From Candidatus Latescibacterota bacterium (GTDB lineage: Bacteria; Krumholzibacteriota; Krumholzibacteriia; WVZY01), in contig CP070677.1 in NCBI GenBank assembly GCA_020352495.1, forward strand, positions 838,249 through 888,752: a DNA stretch of 50,504 bases. Direction: 5' to 3'. Shown piece after piece: positions 3,152 through 15,160 of this stretch. The notes beneath the pieces were generated by a model. It was not told where the DNA came from. It worked only from the letters and a program-made list of their open reading frames with translations, and searched no databases. Positions within the stretch are counted from its first letter, which is position 1. Each line of letters starts with the position of its first letter. Both the position numbers and the translations under genes were made by a program.

Positions 3152-5053
3152 ATGACAAAAACATACGGTCTCATAGTAATCGGTGGCGGTCACGCGGGGT
3201 GTGAAGCCGCGCTTGCAGCGGCGCGGCTCGGGGTTCGGACCGCGTTGGTCACGCTAAAGACGGATCGCATTGGTCACATGCCGTGCAACCCCGCTGTCGG
3301 CGGGTTGGCAAAGGGGCATCTGGTCAAGGAAGTCGACGCGTTGGGTGGTGAAATCGGCCGCGCAACCGACCGGGCGGGGATCCAGTTTCGGATGCTCAAC
3401 CGGGCGAAGGGCCCCGCAGTGTGGTCCCCACGCGCGCAGGTGGACAAGTTTCACTATCGTCAGATAATGAAACATACTGTTGAAAATCAGACAAACCTTC
3501 AAGTAATCGAGGCCGAGGTCGAAAAAATCCTCGTTGACCACTCGCGATTTCGTGGAATCGTAATACGTGAAGGAGCCACGCTCGCAGCGCCTTGTTGCGT
3601 GCTCACCGGAGGGACCTTCCTAAAGGGATTGATGCATATCGGGGAGAAAAAGATCCGCGGCGGACGTGAAGGCGAACCGCAAGCGGGATCACTTTCCGAG
3701 TCGCTTCGCGCGCTCGGGCTTCGGGTGGGGCGGCTCAAGACGGGCACCCCCCCAAGAGTTCTCAGATATTCGGTTGATCTCTCGCGATTCGAACCCCAAC
3801 ACGGAGACGATCCGCCAGCTCCCTTCTCGCACCGCACACCTGCCATCAGACAGCGTCAGGAGACGTGTTACCTTACCTACACGAATGAGAAGACGCACGA
3901 TATACTCCGGCGCGCTCTCGATCGATCTCCCCTCTACCGGGGTGACATCGAAGGCATTGGGACGCGGTACTGCCCATCGATCGAGGACAAGATCGTACGC
4001 TTCCCGGACAAGACACGACATCAGATTTTTGTCGAGCCAGAGGGGCGTGATCACCCCGAGCTCTACCTCAACGGCATTTCCACGAGCATGCCCGTCGATG
4101 TGCAGCTCGAGATGCTCAAATCGATCCCCGGGCTGGACATGGCTGTGATGCGGCGCCCCGGGTATGCGGTCGAGTATGATTTTTTCCCACCGGAGCAGCT
4201 CAAGAGATCCCTCGAGTCGAAGTGCATCGACGGTCTTTACTTTGCCGGACAGGTCAACGGGACTTCCGGTTACGAAGAAGCCGCCGCACAGGGGCTTGTG
4301 GCAGGAGTCAATGCCGTCTTGATGTCTCGGGGTGAGCCGCCGTTTGTGCCGGGGCGTGACGAAGCGTATATTGGTGTTCTGATCGACGACCTCACGACGA
4401 AGGAGATCGACGAACCGTACCGTATGTTTACGTCTCGAGCGGAGTTCCGGTTGTTGCTCAGGCAGGACAACGCCGACGAGCGTCTCATGCGCTACGGTGT
4501 GCGGTGGGGGTTGGTCAACGAGGAGGCCTGGGAAAGGACCCGGGAGCGAATCGATGGAGTTCAAAGCATCGTCAGTCGGCTCGAGCAAACACAGTTTCCT
4601 TCGGAGTCCGGAAACGAGCTTTTGGAGTCTCTTGGACTCGAGAAGGTCAATAAGCCGTCTTCGTTGTTACAGGTTCTCAAGCGTCCCGGAGTCCGTTTTT
4701 GTGACATCGAACCCCTGGTCTTTGGGAAAAAGGGATCGTCCGATGGGCTCGGTACCTACGTGGAATGCTCGGTGAAGTACCTGGGGTACATCGGACGGCA
4801 GGAGAAGGACATCCAAATGGTCCGGGAGATGGAAGATAAACCGATTCCGCTCGATTTTCCGTATCAAGAGATTGCCGGTTTGAGCACGGAGGCACGGCAG
4901 AAGCTCACCACAAAACGCCCCGAAACAGTCGCGCAGGCTTCACGCATCTCCGGTGTGAGGGCATCGGATCTGTCGATTCTCGTGGTTCATCTCGAGCGAC
5001 GCCGTTCCTCACGGCGGGAAACCGTCCAAGCGGGAGCCAATGTCAGCCGATAA
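3152..5053 (+). CDS. mnmG: tRNA uridine-5-carboxymethylaminomethyl modification enzyme MnmG (GidA)
   Basis: 633 residues. This is the FAD-dependent partner of MnmE. The N-terminal dinucleotide-binding motif is [15 protein letters not shown] (residues about 8-22), followed by the family signatures [44 protein letters not shown] and [16 protein letters not shown]. The C-terminal helical domain carries the [15 protein letters not shown] block. It starts 54 nt after mnmE and its last 14 nt overlap rsmG. The last residues ([19 protein letters not shown]) are a basic tail beyond the conserved part. Confidence 0.97.
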
Positions 5054-5708
5054 GACCAATGATGTTTCAAAGGTGTTAGACGCCCTTACCGACATCACCC
5101 ACCGCTTGACCCCAGGTACGTTTCGTCTCTTCATCGAAGATCTCCTCCGTTGGAACCCACGGCTTGGTCTTGTCTCCAAACGCAACACAGGAGATGTAAC
5201 CGTCAAGCTGGTTCGGCAAAGCGTCCGTCTTTGGGACTTTACGCTGAAAAACTCGGGGCTTCGGGCCACGCAACATCGTCTACGGGTGGTGGACTTTGGC
5301 ACCGGTGGCGGGTTCCCCGGGCTTGTCTGGAAGCTGGTCAGCCCCGAAATCGATCTCACGCTCGTCGACCGGAAGGATCGAAAAGTAGCGTTCTTGGAAC
5401 GAGTTATTGCCAGGCTGGGGCTTACGTCGGTAGAGGCGTTTACGCTTGATATCAGGGAGTTTTCGCGGCGGGAGACGTTCCAGGGGAAGTTCGATCTAGC
5501 TGTTTCGATGGCGGTGTCCCAACCCGAACCCATGGCGGCCGACGTCAGCCGCATCCTCAAGAGCCCAGGGTTTTTCTGTACGATTCGGCGCCGTGCCGAG
5601 ACACCACCGCGCGTGCTCGGGCGGTCTTTGACGATCCGATCCGAGGACCGGACCCCTGATGGGCGGTTGGTGCTCTACGAAAACACACCCGCTCCGTCCC
5701 TGGGCTAG
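5040..5708 (+). CDS. rsmG: 16S rRNA (guanine527-N7)-methyltransferase RsmG (GidB)
   Basis: 222 residues. RsmG is a SAM-dependent methyltransferase for N7 of G527 in 16S rRNA. The SAM-binding core is visible as [16 protein letters not shown] (about residues 83-98), followed by [17 protein letters not shown]. The N-terminal helix region [17 protein letters not shown] is also typical. The gene overlaps the end of mnmG by 14 nt, so the two are probably translationally coupled. It closes the first operon; no terminator is evident in the 216 nt that follow. Confidence 0.93.
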
Positions 5709-5778
5709 CCCCTCGAATCATCCGATCATTTCCGGGACTCCATCCTGAAACATTATAGGAAACAACGGGTTATCACAA

Positions 5779-5794
5779 CGTTTCACGTGAAACA
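5779..5794. promoter_or_regulatory. parS centromere site (ParB binding)
   Basis: The 16-mer CGTTTCACGTGAAACA is a near-perfect palindrome and differs from the classical parS sequence TGTTTCACGTGAAACA only at the first base. It lies in the intergenic stretch after rsmG, about 1.55 kb upstream of parA. ParB loads here as a CTP-dependent clamp and spreads; ParA then moves the complex. The sequence match is seen directly; its function follows from the well-studied ParABS system and the presence of parA and parB nearby. Confidence 0.92.
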
Positions 5795-5857
5795 ACCCGC
5801 AGCCATCGGGCAAATCGAGGCACTCGCCACCCCAACACAGAATTCTCTCAAAAAAGC

Positions 5858-5887
5858 TTGATTAAATTTCAAGGTTGCGATTACTGT
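5858..5887 (+). promoter_or_regulatory. Candidate sigma-70 promoter for the beta-helix lipoprotein
   Basis: TTGATT (5858-5863), an 18-nt spacer and TACTGT (5882-5887) lie in an AT-rich stretch 38 nt before the ATG at 5925. The match is four of six in each hexamer, so this is only a candidate. A strong ribosome site AAGGAGGGG (5914-5922) lies just before the start. Confidence 0.35.
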
Positions 5888-5924
5888 TTCTTCTGACCCC
5901 ACGGTTCAGCGTTAAGGAGGGGCG

Positions 5925-7265
5925 ATGGACAAGCGTATTATACGATATATCAATTGGTTAGCTGTTTTTGCCCTGGTTGGTTTTGCGGCATGCTCGGATG
6001 ACGAAACCGGCCCCGGGCCAAACAGCTCTCCCACCATTCAATTCACATTTGACAAATTGGCGGTCGAGATGACAAAGGCTGTGACGCTCACGGTCGATGT
6101 GTCTGATCCGGATGATGATCCGCTAACGGTGACCTGGGCCGTGACCCGTGACGGGGCGCCCTCGGGATCGTTGAACCCGGCTGACCAGGGAAGCCCATCG
6201 ATGAGGTGGACGGCACCGGCGCAGACCGGCCGCGACACAATCAGGGTGGTCGTCTCTGACGGCAAAGGCGGGACACGAACCCTAGTGGAAACGATCGTGA
6301 CGGCGAGGTTGGAGGTGGGCGTCACCGTATCCCAGATCTGGAACAAAGCGAGCGGGCCGTATCTCATGAGGCCAGGGACGGCGTTTTTCGTCATCAACGA
6401 AAGGGCCACGCTGACGGTCGACCCGGGAGTCGAGATTTACATCGACGTTGACGCGTTGGATGTCAGCGTCGTCGGCAGTCTCGATGTCAATGGGACGTCT
6501 GGTGAGAGAGTGGTTTTTCGACCCAACTCGAGAAACCCAGAAATGGGTAGTTGGCAAGGGATTACGGCCAGTCCCAGCGGTGAAGTTCCCGTCGTCGATC
6601 TGAGACACACAGACATCCTCTACGCCGTCGATGCGATCAAGGCCAACGAGGTCGCCATCGTGCGACTCGACGGGTGCCGCATCAAATTCTCTCAGGAGAA
6701 CGCGGTTCTGCATCGGTCGACCGGAGAGCTTCGGGTAGAGAACTGTGTGATCACCGACAACAACCGGACCGGCATACGAATAAAACGAGGTCCAGGCGTG
6801 GACGTACCGGAGACCGTGGTCATCTCTGGAGACAGTATCGCGGTAAACGGGGATCTCAGCGGGGCGACGCCGTATGACGACGATGCAGGGATTTTGATCG
6901 ACATAGACGATCCCGTCGGCACTGCGTCTATCGACATTAGCTGCAATGAGATATCGAGGAATGGGACAACCGGCATTCAACTGGCCAACGCCGTATATCC
7001 CTTTATTCACCATAATGCAATTTTTGGGAATGAGCGTGGAAAAAGCGGTGAGCGGTTCAACATTCGGCTGACGAACAACTTTGGTGGGGTCATTCCTACG
7101 ATCGATGCGAGAAACAACTATTGGGGCGCGCCGTTCACAAACCCCGCCGCCGATTCTACGACGATCAAGAGATCCATCCGCGACGTGGAGGACGCAGCCG
7201 GCATCACGGTCAGGGTGCTCATCTATGAGTGGCTCAATGAATGGCCAACGCCGCAATGTCCTTGA
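5925..7265 (+). CDS. Secreted lipoprotein with Ig-like domain and parallel beta-helix repeats
   Basis: 446 residues. A lipoprotein signal peptide ends in GFAAC with Cys23 as the lipidation site, followed by an acidic, Pro/Gly/Ser-rich linker. Residues about 35-130 look like an Ig/cadherin-like beta-sandwich (TLTVDVSDPDDDPLTVTW, then RVVVSDGKGGTRT). From about 190 onward short turns recur (VRLDGCRIKFS, LRVENCVITDNNRTGIRIK, IDISCNEISRNGTTGIQLA, PFIHHNAIFGNERG), the pattern of a right-handed parallel beta-helix. The ending, with NNYWGAP, is common in such surface proteins. Function unknown; surface binding or polysaccharide handling is possible. It interrupts the usual rsmG-parA junction. Confidence 0.8.
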   Translation: MDKRIIRYINWLAVFALVGFAACSDDETGPGPNSSPTIQFTFDKLAVEMTKAVTLTVDVSDPDDDPLTVTWAVTRDGAPSGSLNPADQGSPSMRWTAPAQTGRDTIRVVVSDGKGGTRTLVETIVTARLEVGVTVSQIWNKASGPYLMRPGTAFFVINERATLTVDPGVEIYIDVDALDVSVVGSLDVNGTSGERVVFRPNSRNPEMGSWQGITASPSGEVPVVDLRHTDILYAVDAIKANEVAIVRLDGCRIKFSQENAVLHRSTGELRVENCVITDNNRTGIRIKRGPGVDVPETVVISGDSIAVNGDLSGATPYDDDAGILIDIDDPVGTASIDISCNEISRNGTTGIQLANAVYPFIHHNAIFGNERGKSGERFNIRLTNNFGGVIPTIDARNNYWGAPFTNPAADSTTIKRSIRDVEDAAGITVRVLIYEWLNEWPTPQCP

Positions 7266-7289
7266 ATGAAAAGAGTTAGAAGGTTTTCG

Positions 7290-7331
7290 GGGCCCGAGGA
7301 GGCGTCCCGTTGGGGCGTCCTCCGAGGGCCC
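7290..7331. repeat. GC-rich hairpin before parA
   Basis: GGGCCC at 7290-7295 pairs with GGGCCC at 7326-7331, and the inner parts GAGGAGGCG and CGTCCTCC extend the stem imperfectly. It lies between the lipoprotein stop (7265) and the parA start (7346). There is no T-run after it, so it is not a classical intrinsic terminator. It could limit read-through or affect parA translation; the sequence alone cannot tell. Confidence 0.5.
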
Positions 7332-7345
7332 GGGACAAACAATAC

Positions 7346-8122
7346 ATGGGAAAAATCGTCGCAATCGCCAATCAAAAGGGGGGTGTCGGGAAGACCACGA
7401 CGGCGGTCAACCTCTGCGCGAGTCTGGCGGCCGCCGAGAAAAAAACACGCCTCGTCGATATGGACCCGCAGGCCAACGCCGGATCCGGTGTTGGTGTCGA
7501 CAAACGCGATCTCGGACTCACCGTCTATGAGGTCCTTCTCGACAACACCATGGTAGAGGACGCGATCATCCCCATGTTTCTCGATCGTCTGTTTTTACTC
7601 CCATCAAACGAAAGACTAACCGGCGCCGAAGTGGAACTCGTCGCCCAGGACGGAAGAGAGTTCCGGCTCCGGAGGGCGCTCGAGCGTGTCAAAGAACAAT
7701 ACGAATACATTTTCATCGATTGCCCCCCGGGCATGGGGCTCCTCACGCTCAATGCGCTCGCTGCCGCCGACTCGGTGATCATGCCCGTACAGTGTGAGTA
7801 TTACGCTCTGGAGGGTCTGGGCCAACTCCTCGAAACGGTTCGGCTCGTCCAAACGAGACTCAACCCCGGGTTGGAGATCGAAGGCGTGTTGCTCACTATG
7901 TTCGACCGGCGTCTCAACCTCGCCAACCAAGTGGTTCAGGATGCCATCGCATATTTCGGGGACAAGGTCTTCGAGACGATCATCCCCCGAAACGTCAAAC
8001 TCAGTGAGTCTCCCAGTTACGGAAAACCGATTCTGCTCTACGACGCCCAATCGCAAGGGGCGCAAACGTACCTACGACTGGCAAGAGAGGTGATAAACAG
8101 TGTCGAAGAGAGCGTTGGGTAA
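7346..8122 (+). CDS. parA: Chromosome partitioning ATPase ParA (Soj)
   Basis: 258 residues from the ATG at 7346, chosen because the family begins MGKIVAIANQKGGVGKTTT; the frame is open upstream to a TTG at 7310, but that adds 12 residues foreign to the family. The deviant Walker A motif KGGVGKTT is at residues 11-18, the motif DMDPQANAG follows, and the Walker B region FIDCPPGMG is visible. ParA binds DNA as an ATP dimer and is released by ParB, which moves origin regions apart. The ribosome site is weak and lies just after a GC-rich hairpin. Its end overlaps parB by 23 nt. Confidence 0.96.
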   Translation: MGKIVAIANQKGGVGKTTTAVNLCASLAAAEKKTRLVDMDPQANAGSGVGVDKRDLGLTVYEVLLDNTMVEDAIIPMFLDRLFLLPSNERLTGAEVELVAQDGREFRLRRALERVKEQYEYIFIDCPPGMGLLTLNALAAADSVIMPVQCEYYALEGLGQLLETVRLVQTRLNPGLEIEGVLLTMFDRRLNLANQVVQDAIAYFGDKVFETIIPRNVKLSESPSYGKPILLYDAQSQGAQTYLRLAREVINSVEESVG

Positions 8123-8960
8123 AGGGCTGGAAGCTCTTATTCCACAAGGAGTTATCGATACGCTGGACGCTGAGAAGGTCAGCCACATCCCGATCGACCA
8201 GATCACGGGCAATCCCCATCAGCCCCGCAAGCATTTTGACGAAGACAAGATCCGGTCCCTGGCCGAGAGCATCCGCGCCGACGGTGTTCTCCAACCGGTT
8301 GTCGTTCGGAAAAGGGGTGATCGTTACGAGCTTGTGATGGGAGAACGTCGGCTTCAAGCGGCGAAGCTCGCCGGTGTTCCGTCGATTCCGGCGATCGTAC
8401 GGGCTGTCGCAGATGCGGATTCTCTGCGCCTGGCATTGGTCGAGAACCTTCAACGTGAAGATCTCAACCCGATCGAGGTCGCGGAGGGATACCGTGCGCT
8501 GGTGGACAAATTCGGATTGTCACAACAGGAGCTCGCCGATTTGGTCGGAAAAGACAGAAGCTCCGTGGCAAACACACTTCGCCTGCTTGCGCTCCCCGAA
8601 GAAATCCGGACATATCTCGTCGAGGAAAAGCTGAGCGAAGGTCATGCCCGGGCGCTGCTCTCCTTACCGACAAGGGCCGAACAACTCGCATGCGCCGAGC
8701 GCATCATCCGCAAACAACTCAATGTTCGGCAGGTCGAAGTTGAACTCGGCGGCAAACGCCAACGCGCCGTCAAGGGAAGACCCAAAAAGAAAAAGCCGGC
8801 ACACATCGAACTCTTGGAAAAGGCAATGTCGCAGCATCTCTCTACACGAGTTTCGGTCGAAGAACACCGGGGGGGGAAAGGGAAGATCGTAATCGAGTTC
8901 TACAGCCACGACGATTTCGAGCGGTTGGCTGGGATTCTGAGTATTCCGCTTCCGCGATGA
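8100..8960 (+). CDS. parB: Chromosome partitioning protein ParB (Spo0J)
   Basis: 286 residues, GTG start inside the end of parA. The N-terminal basic segment KRALGKGLEALIP, which stimulates ParA, is present. The CTP-binding ParB/Srx domain includes NPHQPRKHF and the box GERRLQAAK (about residues 80-88). The helix-turn-helix region that reads parS lies around LSQQELADLVGKDRSSVANTLRLL. The C-terminal dimerisation part follows a basic linker KGRPKKKKP. The site it should bind is at 5779-5794. The M23 peptidase start comes 1 nt after its stop, so the genes are very likely cotranscribed. Confidence 0.96.
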   Translation: MSKRALGKGLEALIPQGVIDTLDAEKVSHIPIDQITGNPHQPRKHFDEDKIRSLAESIRADGVLQPVVVRKRGDRYELVMGERRLQAAKLAGVPSIPAIVRAVADADSLRLALVENLQREDLNPIEVAEGYRALVDKFGLSQQELADLVGKDRSSVANTLRLLALPEEIRTYLVEEKLSEGHARALLSLPTRAEQLACAERIIRKQLNVRQVEVELGGKRQRAVKGRPKKKKPAHIELLEKAMSQHLSTRVSVEEHRGGKGKIVIEFYSHDDFERLAGILSIPLPR

Positions 8961-8961
8961 C

Positions 8962-9762
8962 ATGAAGAAGTATCTTTCGTTCATCGTTGTGCCGCACGAC
9001 AATTCCAAGACGCGGAATTATCGATTATCGTATCTCATGCTTTACGGCTTTGGGATCCTGGTGGCCTTGTGTGTGTTGGCAGTGATAGTTCTCGTTGCCA
9101 CGTACGGAAGGATACTGATGAAAGCCCGTCAAGCCGACGTCTTGGCCTCGGAAAACGTGGAACTCCTCAGTCGAAACGCCCGTGTCGATTCGCTGAAGAC
9201 GGAACTCATACGGCTTCAAGCGATGGGTATACAGGTCAAGAAGATGTTGGGCGTCGATCTGTCGGCCGAAGACAGCGCGCTGGTGGCTAATTTGTCGCCC
9301 ACGGTCAGCTCGTCGGGCGTCTCGCAGGCGCTCGAGGGGCCCGACGCGGGTGAAGCTCAACAAAAGCTGATGTTGAAAGCCATCCCATCCATGTGGCCTT
9401 TAAAAGGTTACGTGACACGAGAGTTCCATACCACAGGGGGAGAGAAGAGCGAGGGATATCACCCGGGCATAGATATTGCTGCCCGGCGCAATACACCGGT
9501 GCAAGCGTCCGCTGAAGGGGTCGTAGTCAAAAGCGAATGGGATGAAACCTATGGTCACGTGGTTTTGATCGACCACGGCTTTGGACTGACGACACTCTAT
9601 GGGCACAACACCCGGAATCTTGTCAAGGTTGGAGACCGGGTTGCACGGGGTCAAACGATAGCATTCCTTGGGAGCACGGGCAAGAGTACCGCGCCTCACG
9701 TTCATTTCGAAGTGCGCAAGAACGGTGTGCCCGTCGATCCACGGAAGTATCTGCTCAACTGA
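8962..9762 (+). CDS. Membrane-anchored M23 family metallopeptidase
   Basis: 266 residues. A short basic N-terminus is followed by one membrane segment (about 27-48, LYGFGILVALCVLAVIVLVA) and a helical, probably coiled-coil stretch (50-100). The peptidase M23 (LytM) domain fills the last 120 residues. All four zinc/catalytic positions are present: H167 and D171 in HPGID, H215 in LYGH, and the pair H246/H248 in HVHFEV. It should therefore be an active periplasmic peptidoglycan endopeptidase. It follows parB by 1 nt and precedes a bactofilin, a pairing known from bacteria where bactofilins localise M23 enzymes to shape the cell. Confidence 0.92.
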   Translation: MKKYLSFIVVPHDNSKTRNYRLSYLMLYGFGILVALCVLAVIVLVATYGRILMKARQADVLASENVELLSRNARVDSLKTELIRLQAMGIQVKKMLGVDLSAEDSALVANLSPTVSSSGVSQALEGPDAGEAQQKLMLKAIPSMWPLKGYVTREFHTTGGEKSEGYHPGIDIAARRNTPVQASAEGVVVKSEWDETYGHVVLIDHGFGLTTLYGHNTRNLVKVGDRVARGQTIAFLGSTGKSTAPHVHFEVRKNGVPVDPRKYLLN

Positions 9763-9780
9763 GCGTCGATGAAAGGAAAT

Positions 9781-9813
9781 TTGATCGTTCGGTCTAGTCG
9801 GTTTGTGTACAAT
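9781..9813 (+). promoter_or_regulatory. Weak candidate promoter for bactofilin
   Basis: TTGATC (9781-9786) and TACAAT (9808-9813) stand upstream of the bactofilin gene, but the spacer is 21 nt, longer than the usual 16-18. The -10 element is good and the -35 may be used poorly or with another sigma factor. The bactofilin could equally be read from the parAB-M23 transcript. Confidence 0.3.
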
Positions 9814-9857
9814 CTTCGCGCGTCTTGTCAAAAGACTCTAAAGAGGAGGATGATCGC

Positions 9858-10292
9858 ATGTTTGGTAAGGAAGCTGATAGCGTCGGCGGCGGCGGCGAGG
9901 GCAGCCTGAATTCGATCCTTGGACCGGGGTGCAAAGTCAAAGGCAACATCGAGCTCCAGGGTACGCTTCGGATCGACGGAGACTTTGACGGTGAAGTCAA
10001 ATGCCCCGAGACCTTGATCATTGGAAAATCCGGTGTCGTGAAGGCGAACGTTGCTGTCAAAAACGCTGTCATCGGCGGAAAACTCCTGGGCAACATCCAG
10101 GCGTCGAACAAGATCGAGCTTCAAACCGGTTCCCATGTCGAGGGCGACATACAGACCGCTCGACTGGTGATCGATGAAGGTGTGTTCTTCGAGGGCGCCT
10201 GCAAGATGGGGACTCAGGCACCCGGCGCCGCTCGACCAGGCCCCGAGAGGGAAATGGGGAAGAAGGAGTTGGAAAAACAAGCGGTTAAGTAG
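9858..10292 (+). CDS. Bactofilin family cytoskeletal protein
   Basis: 144 residues from the ATG at 9858, which has a GAGGAGG ribosome site 8 nt upstream; the frame is open further to a TTG at 9825 with no such site. The core (about 20-115) is a run of short hydrophobic beta strands with glycine turns (GCKVKGNIELQGTLRIDGDF, KSGVVKANVAV, GKLLGNI, GSHVEGDI), the compact beta-helix of bactofilins (DUF583). Flexible Gly/Ser and charged tails flank it. Bactofilins polymerise without nucleotides and serve as scaffolds for wall enzymes; the adjacent M23 peptidase is the obvious partner. It ends just before a strong terminator. Confidence 0.92.
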   Translation: MFGKEADSVGGGGEGSLNSILGPGCKVKGNIELQGTLRIDGDFDGEVKCPETLIIGKSGVVKANVAVKNAVIGGKLLGNIQASNKIELQTGSHVEGDIQTARLVIDEGVFFEGACKMGTQAPGAARPGPEREMGKKELEKQAVK

Positions 10293-10316
10293 GCCACGGG
10301 CGCGTCAAAAAAATGA

Positions 10317-10356
10317 GGGGCTTTGGTAGTTGTGCCGAAGCCCCTTTTTGTTTTTT
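10317..10356 (+). terminator. Intrinsic terminator after bactofilin
   Basis: GGGGCTTTGG (10317-10326) pairs with CCGAAGCCCC (10335-10344) in a ten-pair stem with one G-U pair and an 8-nt loop, followed by TTTTTGTTTTTT (10345-10356). This is a textbook Rho-independent terminator for the parAB-M23-bactofilin unit. Confidence 0.92.
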
Positions 10357-10596
10357 GGCGAAATTGTCCACAACCGGACGGTTCGCTGTTGATAAATCGA
10401 TGGCGCCTGTGGAAAACACCCAACTATTTGTCATATTGTAAGTTGAAGAAACTGACGGCGAGAGGCTTTGTGGTTTTTCCACAAAATGAGGCCTAAGACC
10501 CAACCTATCGTGCGGAGATGAAATGGATAAGATGCCCCGATTCAGGCATCGGTGCATCTCAGCAGAGCTAGCGATTGACACCAAAGAAAATGAATG
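10357..10596. other. Non-coding island with four near-consensus DnaA boxes
   Basis: No gene is seen here. Measured against TTATCCACA, four sites match at eight of nine positions: TTGTCCACA at 10364-10372, TGTTGATAA (reverse strand box) at 10387-10395, TGTGGAAAA (reverse) at 10408-10416, and TTTTCCACA at 10475-10483. The last also forms an inverted repeat TTTGTGG-ttttt-CCACAAA (10467-10485). The island lies between two terminators that point at each other, so it is unlikely to be a leader or promoter region and more likely acts as DNA. It could be a DnaA-binding control site or an origin element. Against oriC: the neighbouring genes on both sides run the same way, and in known clusters of this type the origin lies upstream of yidC. 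Confidence 0.5.
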
Positions 10597-10614
10597 CCCT
10601 CCCGACCGGGAGGG
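10597..10614 (-). terminator. Candidate terminator after the selenoprotein gene
   Basis: CCCTCCC (10597-10603) and GGGAGGG (10608-10614) form a seven-pair stem with a 4-nt loop. On the minus strand it lies 11 nt after the stop codon of the selenoprotein gene and is followed by the T-rich stretch CATTCATTTTCTTT. The T-run is broken, so strength is uncertain. Confidence 0.6.
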
Positions 10615-10625
10615 AGTCACACGCC

Positions 10626-10841
10626 TCAGGTTCCGCCAAAACCGATGCTGACCTTGCCCTTCTCAATGATAACGGGAACCTCGCGCCGGCCGCTCGAGTA
10701 CTCGAGCATTTCACCAAGCGCGGACTTGTTCTTTTTGACATCCTTGTACTGGACTTCAAAGTTTCGTGATGCGTAGTCCTCACGGGCCGCGATCGTGTAG
10801 GGTCAGGTGTCTTTGCCAAAGATCAGAACTTTGTCTGCCAT
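10626..10841 (-). CDS. Glutaredoxin-like selenoprotein (UXX-star type), in-frame TGA read as selenocysteine
   Basis: Read on the minus strand from the ATG at 10841 with AAGGAG (10849-10854) 7 nt upstream. The frame gives MADKVLIFGKDT, then TGA at codon 13 (10805-10803), then PYTIAAREDYASRNFEVQY and onward to a TGA stop at 10628-10626, 71 residues in all. The open frame after the TGA keeps a full thioredoxin-fold pattern: beta strand VLIFG, active site U13-P-Y-T where glutaredoxins have CPYC, helix, second strand FEVQYKDV, the cis-proline strand EVPVII, and the C-terminal strand with GFGG. This matches the small UXX-star (seleno)protein family. A candidate SECIS hairpin follows the TGA. A likely role is thiol redox chemistry in the cytoplasm. 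The alternatives are a nonsense mutation or sequencing error. No selA, selB, selC or selD is in the window. Confidence 0.87.
10765..10802 (-). promoter_or_regulatory. Candidate bacterial SECIS element
   Basis: On the minus strand, CGUGA (10784-10780) pairs with UCACG (10769-10765) around the 10-nt loop GGACUACGCA. The loop starts 23 nt after the UGA and begins with GG. Known bacterial SECIS elements lie inside the reading frame just after UGA, with the apical loop about 16-37 nt away and a G in its first two positions, so this fits. The stem is only five pairs and was found by eye. Confidence 0.6.
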
Positions 10842-10956
10842 TACCGGACTCCTTGGATTGGAAGTCTAGCGTCGCACGTGATGCGTCTCTTTTCGAAAGC
10901 ATGTGTTCGATGAGCTTAAGCCATCACGAATTCGATTGGCAAGCCAACATTTGGCC

Positions 10957-10985
10957 GTAACATTTCAGCTGTAGAATGGTATAAT
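10957..10985 (+). promoter_or_regulatory. Candidate sigma-70 promoter for the moxR operon
   Basis: A perfect TATAAT (10980-10985) has a weak -35 GTAACA (10957-10962) at 17 nt. It stands 80 nt before the moxR start, in the divergent region shared with the selenoprotein gene. Confidence 0.55.
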
Positions 10986-11065
10986 TCCAAAGGTTTAAAC
11001 TATTCCCGGACGCGGGGGACGTGGCTCGTGACCGGGCATTTCAACTTCAAAAAGGAACGATGCGG

Positions 11066-12061
11066 ATGTCAGAAGCGAACGAAAGCATGGCAGATGTCGA
11101 AGAGATCAAGCGATTCAACAAGAGTTACCAAGACGTTCGCCGGGAGATCGGCAAAGTAATCGTCGGTCAGGAGACGGTCATCGAGGAGCTTTTGATTGCC
11201 CTTTTTGCCGGTGGGCACTGTCTGGTCGTCGGAGTGCCCGGGCTGGCCAAAACCCTTTTAATTTCGACCGTGGCCAAGGCACTCGAGCTCAAGTTTTCGA
11301 GGATTCAATTTACACCGGACCTCATGCCATCGGACATCACGGGGACCGAGATCCTCGAGGAGGAAACCGGTACGGGAAAACGAGCGTTCAAGTTTGTCCG
11401 AGGACCGGTTTTTGCGAACGACATTCGGGCCGATGACATCACTCGGACACCCCCCAAACCACAAGCGGCTCTTCTCCAGGCCATGCAGGAACACGAGGTG
11501 ACAGCCGGCGGGGAAACGTTCAAACTCGAGTTGCCGTTCTTTGTGCTTGCCACACAGAATCCAATCGAACAAGAAGGGACCTATCCGCTGCCCGAAGCCC
11601 AACTCGACCGGTTTATGTTTCACATCAACGTCGATTATCCAAGCGAATCCGAGGAGCTGGAAATCGTTGAGACCACCACGTCGAGACCGCCCGAAATTCC
11701 TTCGGTCGTGATCCAGTCCGAAGACATCCTTCGAATCCAACGGCTTGTGAAGACCGTGCCGATCTCGAGCCACGTTATGAACTACGCGATTCGTTTGGTC
11801 AGGGCCACTCGCGATGGCACCGTCAAAGAAGTGCAAGACTACGTGAGCTGGGGCGCGGGTCCACGCGCCGGGCAGCATCTCGTGTTGGGAGCCAAGGTCC
11901 GCGCGATCATGCACGGACGACCGACGCCAAGTTGCGATGACATACGGAAGATCGCAGCTCCTGTTCTCAGACACCGGATTGTGACCAATTTCAATGCCGA
12001 CGCCGACGGCGTCGCCACGGACGAGATCATCGAGAATCTTCTGGGAGCGATAGAAGAGTAA
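11066..12061 (+). CDS. MoxR family AAA+ ATPase
   Basis: 331 residues from the ATG at 11066, 9 nt after AAGGA; a second ATG at 11060 is only 3 nt from it, and the frame is open back to a GTG at 11021. MoxR ATPases act with vWA proteins as chaperones or maturation factors, and a DUF58 and a vWA gene follow here. Walker A GVPGLAKT is at 56-63; sensor 1 is ATQNPIEQEGTYPLPEAQLDRF. Odd: the Walker B region, usually hydrophobic residues then ADEINR, reads NDIRADDITR here, with D123-D124 in place of Asp-Glu and polar residues in the strand. It may hydrolyse ATP slowly. Confidence 0.93.
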   Translation: MSEANESMADVEEIKRFNKSYQDVRREIGKVIVGQETVIEELLIALFAGGHCLVVGVPGLAKTLLISTVAKALELKFSRIQFTPDLMPSDITGTEILEEETGTGKRAFKFVRGPVFANDIRADDITRTPPKPQAALLQAMQEHEVTAGGETFKLELPFFVLATQNPIEQEGTYPLPEAQLDRFMFHINVDYPSESEELEIVETTTSRPPEIPSVVIQSEDILRIQRLVKTVPISSHVMNYAIRLVRATRDGTVKEVQDYVSWGAGPRAGQHLVLGAKVRAIMHGRPTPSCDDIRKIAAPVLRHRIVTNFNADADGVATDEIIENLLGAIEE

Positions 12062-12115
12062 CGTCGTGGCCGTTTTCCTTGTTTTTTCGCTTGCCGGTCG
12101 AGCAAGGCGGTTCCA

Positions 12116-13054
12116 GTGATTCTAAGAAAAAAAGAGACGATCACGAAATTTCTCGATCCGGTGGTGGTGAGCCACCTGGCAAACATGGAGCTAAAGGCGC
12201 GTCTGATCGTGGAAGGCTACATCGCCGGCATGCACCGCAGCCCCTATCACGGGTTCTCGGTCGAGTTTGCCGAATACCGGCAGTATATGCAGGGAGACAA
12301 CCTGCGGTACATCGATTGGAAAGTCTTTGGGAAAACCGACCGTTTCTATATGAAGGTTTTCGAGGAGGAGACAAATCTCAAAGCCACGATCATTCTGGAC
12401 AAGAGCGGTTCGATGGGGTTCTCATCGGCCCAAACACGAGACGGCTCGGTGGCCGGCACGGGTGTCGACAAGCTCACGTACGGGGGGCTCCTTGCGGCAA
12501 GCCTTTCGTATCTAATGATCCGACAACAGGATGCCGTCGGGCTTTGTCTCTTCGACGAGAAGGTCCGCGTCCTGACTCCACACAGATCTGTGCGAAAACA
12601 CCTTTTCTATCTGCTCAGCACGCTGGAGAATCTCACTCCCGGCGATCGAACGCAAATCAGCCCGACGCTTCACCATATAGCGGAGCGCGTCAGACGAAGA
12701 GGTCTTGTCGTGCTCATATCGGATCTCATGGATCGGCCCGAGGACGTGCTCACGGGGCTCAAACATTTCCGGCACAGAGGACACGAAGTCATTGTGTTTC
12801 ACGTCTTGGATCCGCGGGAGCTCGATCTCGACTACCGAGACGAAGTCGAATTCCAGGATATGGAAACCGACAAGAAGCTCCGCGTGGAGCCGGCGTTTTT
12901 GAAAGACGAGTACTCGAGAGACGTCAGGGAGTGGATCAAGGACCTCGACAGAGGATGCAAGTCCCACCAGATCGACTATAACTTGCTCTCCTCGCACACG
13001 CCGTTCGATCAGGCGCTCACTGCTTACTTGAACAAACGAATCCGTATGGGTTGA
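12116..13054 (+). CDS. DUF58 domain protein (vWA-like, MoxR partner)
   Basis: 312 residues, GTG start with AAGGCGG 5 nt before it. The DUF58 signature is clear: GYIAGMHRSPYHGFSVEFAEYRQY, then GDNLRYIDWKVFGKTDRFY. A vWA-like fold follows with the metal-site motif DKSGSMG (about residues 98-104) and the conserved segment VVLISDLMD. No signal peptide or membrane segment is seen, so it is cytoplasmic or peripheral. It sits between a MoxR ATPase and a BatA-like membrane protein, the usual trio for envelope stress or maturation functions. Substrate unknown. Confidence 0.9.
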   Translation: MILRKKETITKFLDPVVVSHLANMELKARLIVEGYIAGMHRSPYHGFSVEFAEYRQYMQGDNLRYIDWKVFGKTDRFYMKVFEEETNLKATIILDKSGSMGFSSAQTRDGSVAGTGVDKLTYGGLLAASLSYLMIRQQDAVGLCLFDEKVRVLTPHRSVRKHLFYLLSTLENLTPGDRTQISPTLHHIAERVRRRGLVVLISDLMDRPEDVLTGLKHFRHRGHEVIVFHVLDPRELDLDYRDEVEFQDMETDKKLRVEPAFLKDEYSRDVREWIKDLDRGCKSHQIDYNLLSSHTPFDQALTAYLNKRIRMG

Positions 13055-13063
13055 GGTGACACC

Positions 13064-15160
13064 GTGTTTGGTCTTGGTTTTCTCAACAGCCTTTTTCTTT
13101 TTGCGCTTGGGGCGATGGTTCTACCCATCGCCATACATATCCTCAACCGCCGGCGTTTACGCAAGATACGTTTCAGCTCGCTCGAGTTTATCTATGAACT
13201 CAATAAGCGACGCATGAGCAAGATCAACCTTCGGCGATGGATCATACTCGCACTGAGAACCCTCGCCGTCGTGTTGATCGTGTTCGCGTTTGCCAGACCG
13301 ACGATCCAACGTGGCGCGGGCTTTTTTGTGCCGGGTGAGGCGCCAAAACACGTCGTCATTTGCCTCGACGTCAGTTACAGCATGGGGGCGGAGCAGGAAG
13401 AGGGCACCGCGTTCTCGATTGCGCAAGGTCTCGCCGGGGAGGTCATCGACGAATGCCGGAGAAACGATCTGGTCAACGTCGTGGCCTTCTCCGAGCGGAG
13501 CAATGTTTTGTTCGAGGCGGGTACGCGAAACAAGCAGATCGTAGCGAGTGCCATCGACGAGCTCCGCGTAACGGCGGAGGGCACGTCCATCGACCGGGCG
13601 ATACAAACGGCCAGTGAGCTGGTGCGGAGTTCGGACGTTGCGACATCGGAGATATATATGATTTCCGATTTTCGCGAGACAGGAGACTCGCTAGCCGTCG
13701 TCGATCTCCCCGAAAACACACGTCTCATCCTTGTGCCGGTCTATCGAGAACCGATCGATAACGCGAGCATCGACCGGGTGTTTACACCGCGCAAACTCAT
13801 CAGACCCGGCGAGACCGTTCGTATCGGAGTATCCACCACCAATCACTCACACGAACAACCGGCAAACTTCCCCCTCGAACTGGTGATCGGTGGGAAACGC
13901 AAGGCAGAAAAGATCATCAATCTCTCGCCCGCCTCGTCGGCAACGGAGACCTTTGTGGTTTCGCTCCCGGATAAGGGCACGTACCGATGCCGGGTCGCCA
14001 AAAACCGTGACCGTCTCCCCATCGACGATGATCGGTTTTTTGTCATGGAAGTATCGGAGAAAATCCCTGTGACACTCGTGCGCGGGAAAAACCTCACCGG
14101 AAACGCGCAGACCGAGCGAACAACGGCGGCCTATTTCTTTGTCGACAAAGCGCTTAACCCCCGGAGCACGTCGGAAGGGGAGTTCAGCGTCGATGTGATC
14201 GATCAAAAAGACATCACAGTGGCGAGCCTTCCAAACAAGGGAGTCGTGGTTTGGACCGAACCGCAGACATTGGACCGGCGCCGTTTGGACCTCCTCAAAC
14301 GGTACGTTCACAGGGGTGGCGCGGTCTTGATCTTTTTGGGTGGGGATCGACGGGGTTTCTGGCGTGACGTCGAATTCGCCCGCTATCTGGGGATCCAAAG
14401 AGCCGCTCCAAAGGAAAAACCCGAGGGGGAGCGGCTGACGTCGTTTTCCCAGGGGCACCCCGTGTTCAACCTGTTCAATGAAGAGGAGCTCGAGCTGTTA
14501 TCGAGAAGCCGGGTAACCAAGTATCTCTCCGTAACCGGTGTGGCGCCCGACTCGACCCTTGCGTATCTGCAAAACGGCGACCCGGCGATCTGGGAGTGTG
14601 CGCGGGGTGCGGGGCGGATTATCGTCGTCGCGGCGGCACCGGATCTTGTAAGCGGCAACGTCCCGCTCTCCCCGATGTTTCTTCCGCTCATTCACACGGC
14701 CGTATCCTATCTGGCCGCTTCGAACCGTACCGGTTCACGGCAGGAAAACACTGTGGGGACGGATCTGTTCTTCGACCTGCCGCCAAAATGGAATGCTCAA
14801 ACCGGGGAGCTACGGGTTTTGACCGAAGCCGGTGGTGAAGCGAAACCCATTTTGTATGAATCCAAACAAGGTGAGACAAAAGCGCTTCTCCCTAGACCCC
14901 AGGCTATAGGGTTCTACACGCTGTTGGCAGACACATCGCGGATCGCGGAGGCGTGTGTCAACGTGGATACCCGGGAATCGAATCTGAACCCGCGGCCCCT
15001 CGAAGAGACCGATCTTGGTCAGGCCAGGGTTGTCGAGACATCGGGAGATTTTGCACAGAACCTCCGCCGCGAGACACAGGGGCGTGAAATCTACGCGGTT
15101 TTCCTTCTCCTTGCGCTGTCCGCGCTCGTCGTCGAAGCCCTTCTGGGGCGGAAAGCCTGA
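13064..15160 (+). CDS. BatA/vWA domain membrane protein
   Basis: 698 residues, GTG start. The N-terminal BatA-type region has two membrane segments (about 5-25, then about 60-78 in RWIILALRTLAVVLIVFAFARP) with the motif HILNRRRLRKIRFSSLEF between them. A vWA domain follows with the metal-site start DVSYSMG (near residue 103). A long extracytoplasmic part with beta-rich and glutamine-amidotransferase-like segments (VRGKNLTGNAQ, then VVWTEPQTL) leads to a last membrane segment, YAVFLLLALSALVVEALLG. It completes a MoxR-DUF58-vWA operon. No batB-E genes follow, so this is a short version of the locus. Confidence 0.87.
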   Translation: MFGLGFLNSLFLFALGAMVLPIAIHILNRRRLRKIRFSSLEFIYELNKRRMSKINLRRWIILALRTLAVVLIVFAFARPTIQRGAGFFVPGEAPKHVVICLDVSYSMGAEQEEGTAFSIAQGLAGEVIDECRRNDLVNVVAFSERSNVLFEAGTRNKQIVASAIDELRVTAEGTSIDRAIQTASELVRSSDVATSEIYMISDFRETGDSLAVVDLPENTRLILVPVYREPIDNASIDRVFTPRKLIRPGETVRIGVSTTNHSHEQPANFPLELVIGGKRKAEKIINLSPASSATETFVVSLPDKGTYRCRVAKNRDRLPIDDDRFFVMEVSEKIPVTLVRGKNLTGNAQTERTTAAYFFVDKALNPRSTSEGEFSVDVIDQKDITVASLPNKGVVVWTEPQTLDRRRLDLLKRYVHRGGAVLIFLGGDRRGFWRDVEFARYLGIQRAAPKEKPEGERLTSFSQGHPVFNLFNEEELELLSRSRVTKYLSVTGVAPDSTLAYLQNGDPAIWECARGAGRIIVVAAAPDLVSGNVPLSPMFLPLIHTAVSYLAASNRTGSRQENTVGTDLFFDLPPKWNAQTGELRVLTEAGGEAKPILYESKQGETKALLPRPQAIGFYTLLADTSRIAEACVNVDTRESNLNPRPLEETDLGQARVVETSGDFAQNLRRETQGREIYAVFLLLALSALVVEALLGRKA

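Follow-up and report, generated by a model that had tools for sequence, protein, structure and literature searches.

Does a short frame broken by in-frame UGA codons encode a genuine selenoprotein, and if it does, at which UGA does translation end? The question is raised by a locus on the minus strand of a 50,504-nucleotide stretch of a Candidatus Latescibacterota genome (contig CP070677.1, positions 838,249 to 888,752; hereafter, the window, with positions counted from its first letter). From the ATG, the frame reads MADKVLIFGKDT-TGA-PYT... as far as the TGA at 10626-10628, beyond which the same frame encodes Gly-Val and then reaches another TGA. The reading that we favor, at a probability of about 0.92, is that of a 74-residue protein of the NF041114 family with a glutaredoxin fold, in which both of the first two UGAs would be decoded as selenocysteine (Sec) and the third would serve as the stop.

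The frame of a predicted hidden selenoprotein

A first-pass annotation had proposed a hidden UXX-star selenoprotein with U at codon 13, missed by ordinary gene calling, with a ribosome site 7 nt before the ATG. The standard open reading frame call on the window indeed did not report the selenoprotein frame, and the putative ribosome binding site, AAGGAG, was seen at 10854-10849; in the relatives, purine-rich sites are also present upstream of the ATG. The core of the proposal, a UXX-star protein with Sec at codon 13, was supported by the match to NF041114 (113 bits) and by the presence of TGA at this codon in seven of the seven genomes compared. The features of the locus, as revised here, are listed in Table 1.

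Table 1. Features of the UXX-star locus (window coordinates)
Feature	Position	Strand	Description and basis
Ribosome binding site AAGGAG	10849..10854	(-)	7 nt upstream of ATG; read directly
Start codon ATG	10841	(-)	Read directly
Coding sequence of the predicted 74-residue double selenoprotein, stop TGA included	10617..10841	(-)	Relatives and NF041114 match
Codon 13 TGA, predicted first selenocysteine, active-site UPYT	10803..10805	(-)	TGA in 7/7; aligns with glutaredoxin active-site Cys
Codon 72 TGA, predicted second selenocysteine, GFGGTUGV	10626..10628	(-)	TGA in 7/7, then two codons and stop; within NF041114 span
Codon 75 TGA, predicted real stop	10617..10619	(-)	TAA or TAG at this place in L009, L010, L003, and L004
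Candidate SECIS 1, for U13	10768..10794	(-)	Short hairpin, apical loop GTGA 10783-10780, 19 nt after UGA
Candidate SECIS 2, for U72	10597..10614	(-)	7-bp stem CCCTCCC/GGGAGGG, loop GGTC 10607-10604, 18 nt after UGA

Family assignment, fold, and predicted function

The read-through protein matched the NCBIfam model NF041114 ("UXX-star selenoprotein family 1," also "distant Grx-like protein 1") above the cut-off (113 bits vs 72; E = 5.7e-33). When the genome was searched with this model, the match (102.4 bits) covered model positions 1-70 and contained two TGA codons. A 2026 review (PMC13188914) gives the UxxT motif and two Sec residues as features of NF041114. Both are found here (U13-P-Y-T16; two Sec, including U72), the likeness extends over the whole length, and we found no feature that would separate the protein from the family. 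The gene is thus a new member of a catalogued family, and the two Sec residues are already known for NF041114, given that the review lists it so.

Pfam Glutaredoxin (PF00462) was also matched, with 35.8 bits against a gathering cut-off of 22.9. AlphaFold modeling yielded a glutaredoxin fold (pLDDT 85.2), for which Foldseek returned thioredoxin-like BC3987, glutaredoxins, and cGrx1, the last of these being also the first match in a profile search. U13 lies at the N-terminal end of the first helix, the position of the glutaredoxin catalytic Cys, and T16 takes the place of the usual second Cys. The selenoprotein glutaredoxin cGrx1 from Clostridium oremlandii (PDB 7c10, 7c12) has the same fold and a Sec/Cys at the same N-terminal active-site position. 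However, cGrx1 contains a second active-site Cys (the structures are of C16S and dithiol forms), whereas the protein described here has T16 and a second Sec in the C-terminal tail.

The protein is predicted to be a monothiol-glutaredoxin-like oxidoreductase. U13, in a UPYT motif without a second Cys, would be the nucleophile of this enzyme, and U72, in the short C-terminal tail, would be the resolving residue, yielding a U13-U72 diselenide that would be reduced by a reductase or a thiol. We put the odds of this division of labor between U13 and U72 at about even. By analogy, U72 may resolve U13: in yeast Grx5 and Chlamydomonas Grx3, the Cys of the active site can be resolved by forming a bond with a C-terminal Cys; in the monothiol glutaredoxin GrxS12, the C-terminal Cys is 9.6 Å off and no such bond is formed (PMC3866529). 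The protein in question shares with Grx5 and Grx3 (PMC3866529) an active-site motif without a second Cys and a further chalcogen residue close to the C-terminal end. Unlike in Grx5 and Grx3, both residues here are Sec, the sequence and the tail differ, and the bond is put forward as a proposal.

A genuine double selenoprotein could also lack oxidoreductase activity and bind a metal or metalloid through its two selenols, given that Sec residues of UXX-star proteins may be metal ligands (PMC13188914). We consider this unlikely, although far from negligible: no metal-handling genes adjoin the gene in any genome examined, and the fold and the position of U13 match those of catalytic glutaredoxins.

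The predicted second selenocysteine codon and its candidate SECIS

To locate the end of the gene, we relied on seven genomes from three phyla with a clear family member, including the window gene (L002 is the same locus as L009). Another candidate, L005, was discarded as a false match with an early in-frame TAA and no UXX-star features. Alignment of homologs across the codon 13 TGA had been set as a check in the first-pass annotation; the relatives, with protein identities of 54-80%, align over both TGAs in the seven genomes. Codons 13 and 72 are TGA in every genome, and both U positions are among the 25 invariant columns of the alignment. Codon 72 is always followed by two codons (for G, A, or S and then for V or I) and a stop, which is TGA in the window gene, L006, and L008, TAA in L009 and L003, and TAG in L010 and L004. 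Because codon 72 is TGA throughout, with two codons and a varying stop behind it, and because the NF041114 match spans two TGAs, the host gene most likely encodes a 74-residue protein with two selenocysteines, U13 and U72. Accordingly modified is the original description of a complete 71-residue protein with one Sec, in which codon 13 stands and the length and the single Sec do not. UGA also doubles as the stop of the same gene, as had been claimed, but this role falls to the third UGA, three codons further, and not to the TGA at 10626-10628.

The 3' untranslated region holds a G+C-rich hairpin (10614-10597). The bSECIS model calls for a loop of 3-9 nt with G in the first two loop positions, an upper stem of 4-16 bp, a UGA-to-loop distance of 16-37 nt, and an energy of at most -7.5 kcal/mol (PMC13188914). 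With its 4-nt loop starting with GG, 7-bp stem, distance of 18 nt from codon 72, and energy of -15.7 kcal/mol, the hairpin agrees with this model. Like the Escherichia coli fdhF SECIS (sequence checked against E. coli genomes), the hairpin carries an apical GGTC at a distance of 18 nt from the UGA; it differs from that element in stem sequence and in its location past the stop codon. Five of the seven family genomes have a stem of 7 bp or more at this place after codon 72, whereas of 73 other long open frames in the retrieved regions, one has such a stem after its stop. Among five genomes, compensatory changes affect six of the seven pairs of the stem, and the closing C-G pair is constant. The position of the hairpin is kept in the relatives; it is imperfect in L008, the loop in L004 is at 15 nt, and the loops in L008 and L010 contain GTG. 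Only 9 nt separate the third UGA (codon 75) from the apical loop, a distance outside the bSECIS range, which fits the use of this codon as the stop.

The stem after the stop had been described as terminator-like; considering the GGTC loop and the 18-nt spacing, it is best read as the putative SECIS of codon 72. With CATTCATTTT behind it, the hairpin matched a loose terminator pattern in a scan, so it may have a double role, as SECIS and as terminator. The same pattern would be expected if a protein with a single Sec, U13, ended at the codon 72 TGA with an intrinsic terminator behind it. This appears very improbable: codon 72 is never TAA or TAG in the seven genomes, with the stop varying exactly three codons later; the NF041114 match runs past codon 72 with both TGAs inside; the review assigns two Sec to the family (PMC13188914); and the loop sequence and distance of the hairpin fit the bSECIS model.

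The element downstream of U13

For the first predicted Sec codon, a hairpin had been placed at 10765-10805, where a SECIS would lie. Its sequence is conserved, but its fold is no better than that of shuffled sequences (z = 0.31). Candidate SECIS 1, the best hairpin here, fits the bSECIS model in its place and G-containing loop; its energy, -5.4 kcal/mol, is above the limit, and the apical stem has 2 bp. RNAalifold produced a consensus of -1.88, with no convincing structure, and no Rfam SECIS family reached the gathering score at the locus, where matches at E up to 10 were chance ones. The constraint on the sequence is evident from the CGTG located 18-21 nt after the codon 13 UGA, which is invariant (7/7). 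All seven genes use CGT for Arg at codon 20, but for only 1 of their 27 other Arg codons (Fisher p = 1.5e-6, which treats related sequences as independent and therefore overstates the case). We take the U13 element to be a putative SECIS that is constrained but weakly folding.

Selection, genomic context, and distribution

Comparison with the same-genus gene gave pS of 0.68 and pN of 0.035 before codon 13 and pS of 0.45 and pN of 0.14 after it; pS well above pN on both sides of the TGA points to selection on the protein on both sides. In the same-genus genome (G001), the UXX-star sequence is the same as in the Latescibacterota record CP070631.1, which assigns the host to this group.

In the family to which the window belongs, the gene sits by itself between bactofilin and MoxR, on the strand opposite to theirs. 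The gene order is gidA-rsmG-parA-parB-M23 peptidase-bactofilin-(UXX-star)-moxR-DUF58-batA (neighbors named by reading the sequences). This conserved order covers positions 3152-15160 of the window, and the UXX-star gene is always an antisense insert between bactofilin and moxR (L044, a short contig, includes the moxR side only). The members from Desulfobacterales and Binatia have different neighbors, and comparison of the neighborhoods in these two groups and in the window's family suggested no partner gene. Within the phylum, UXX-star family 1 turned up in 5 of 80 genomes, all of them from the family to which the window belongs. A search of the phylum for Cys homologs with the full UXX-star architecture yielded, as the nearest proteins, CSHC glutaredoxins without the GGTU tail, and the plasmids searched encode an ordinary glutaredoxin 3 only.

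A pseudogene or a sequencing error, in which point changes to TGA disrupt a cysteine glutaredoxin, would account for the bare presence of the stops and nothing more; its probability is negligible and it is already contradicted by the relatives, given that the same two TGAs recur in independent assemblies from three phyla, including the same-genus genome at 80% identity, that the genomic place is conserved in the family, and that non-synonymous change is kept low.

Selenocysteine machinery and proposed decoding

A selenoprotein implies selenium incorporation genes elsewhere in the genome, as the first-pass annotation had anticipated, and all of those sought were found in the host genome (one contig, 4.3 Mb). 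It encodes SelA (408.6 bits), SelB (382.9 bits, cut-off 242), tRNA-Sec with the anticodon TCA (identified by both Rfam and ARAGORN), and two copies of selD, both above the cut-off, one of which has its own in-frame TGA. SelA was present in 57 of the 58 searched genomes of the class (own and relatives).

The TGA-bearing selD (genome positions 57158-58081; L037; L046) contains the in-frame TGA in the context …CAGUASKF… and is an independent selenoprotein candidate; just upstream of it is a TusA-like frame (named by eye from the sequence). The other selD (L036, genome positions 4096329-4097252) sits within a 764-residue open frame; because this is over twice as long as the SelD match, a fusion protein seems likely.

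Comparison across genomes establishes both predicted Sec codons, a frame of 74 residues, the presence of the machinery, and where the second hairpin lies, and it strongly supports the decoding of both UGAs as Sec, which we infer. SelB and Sec-tRNA-Sec would decode the UGA at codons 13 and 72, each served by its own downstream element, in the case of codon 72 the terminator-looking hairpin. Translation would end at the third UGA, three codons past the second, a codon to which the hairpin would lie too near to work as a SECIS.

Implications

Gene callers cut this gene at residue 12, and accepting the first UGA alone still loses the second Sec, so that the corrected 74-residue model is what expression or annotation of the protein needs. 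The UGA-x-x-UGA pair before one hairpin is a compact system for testing the bacterial SECIS distance rule. More tentatively, and with odds somewhat short of even, the locus may provide a natural test of SECIS position, in which a Sec UGA and a stop UGA located 9 nt apart share one 3'-UTR hairpin (here, in L006, and in L008), combined with U13-U72 diselenide cycling in the encoded protein.
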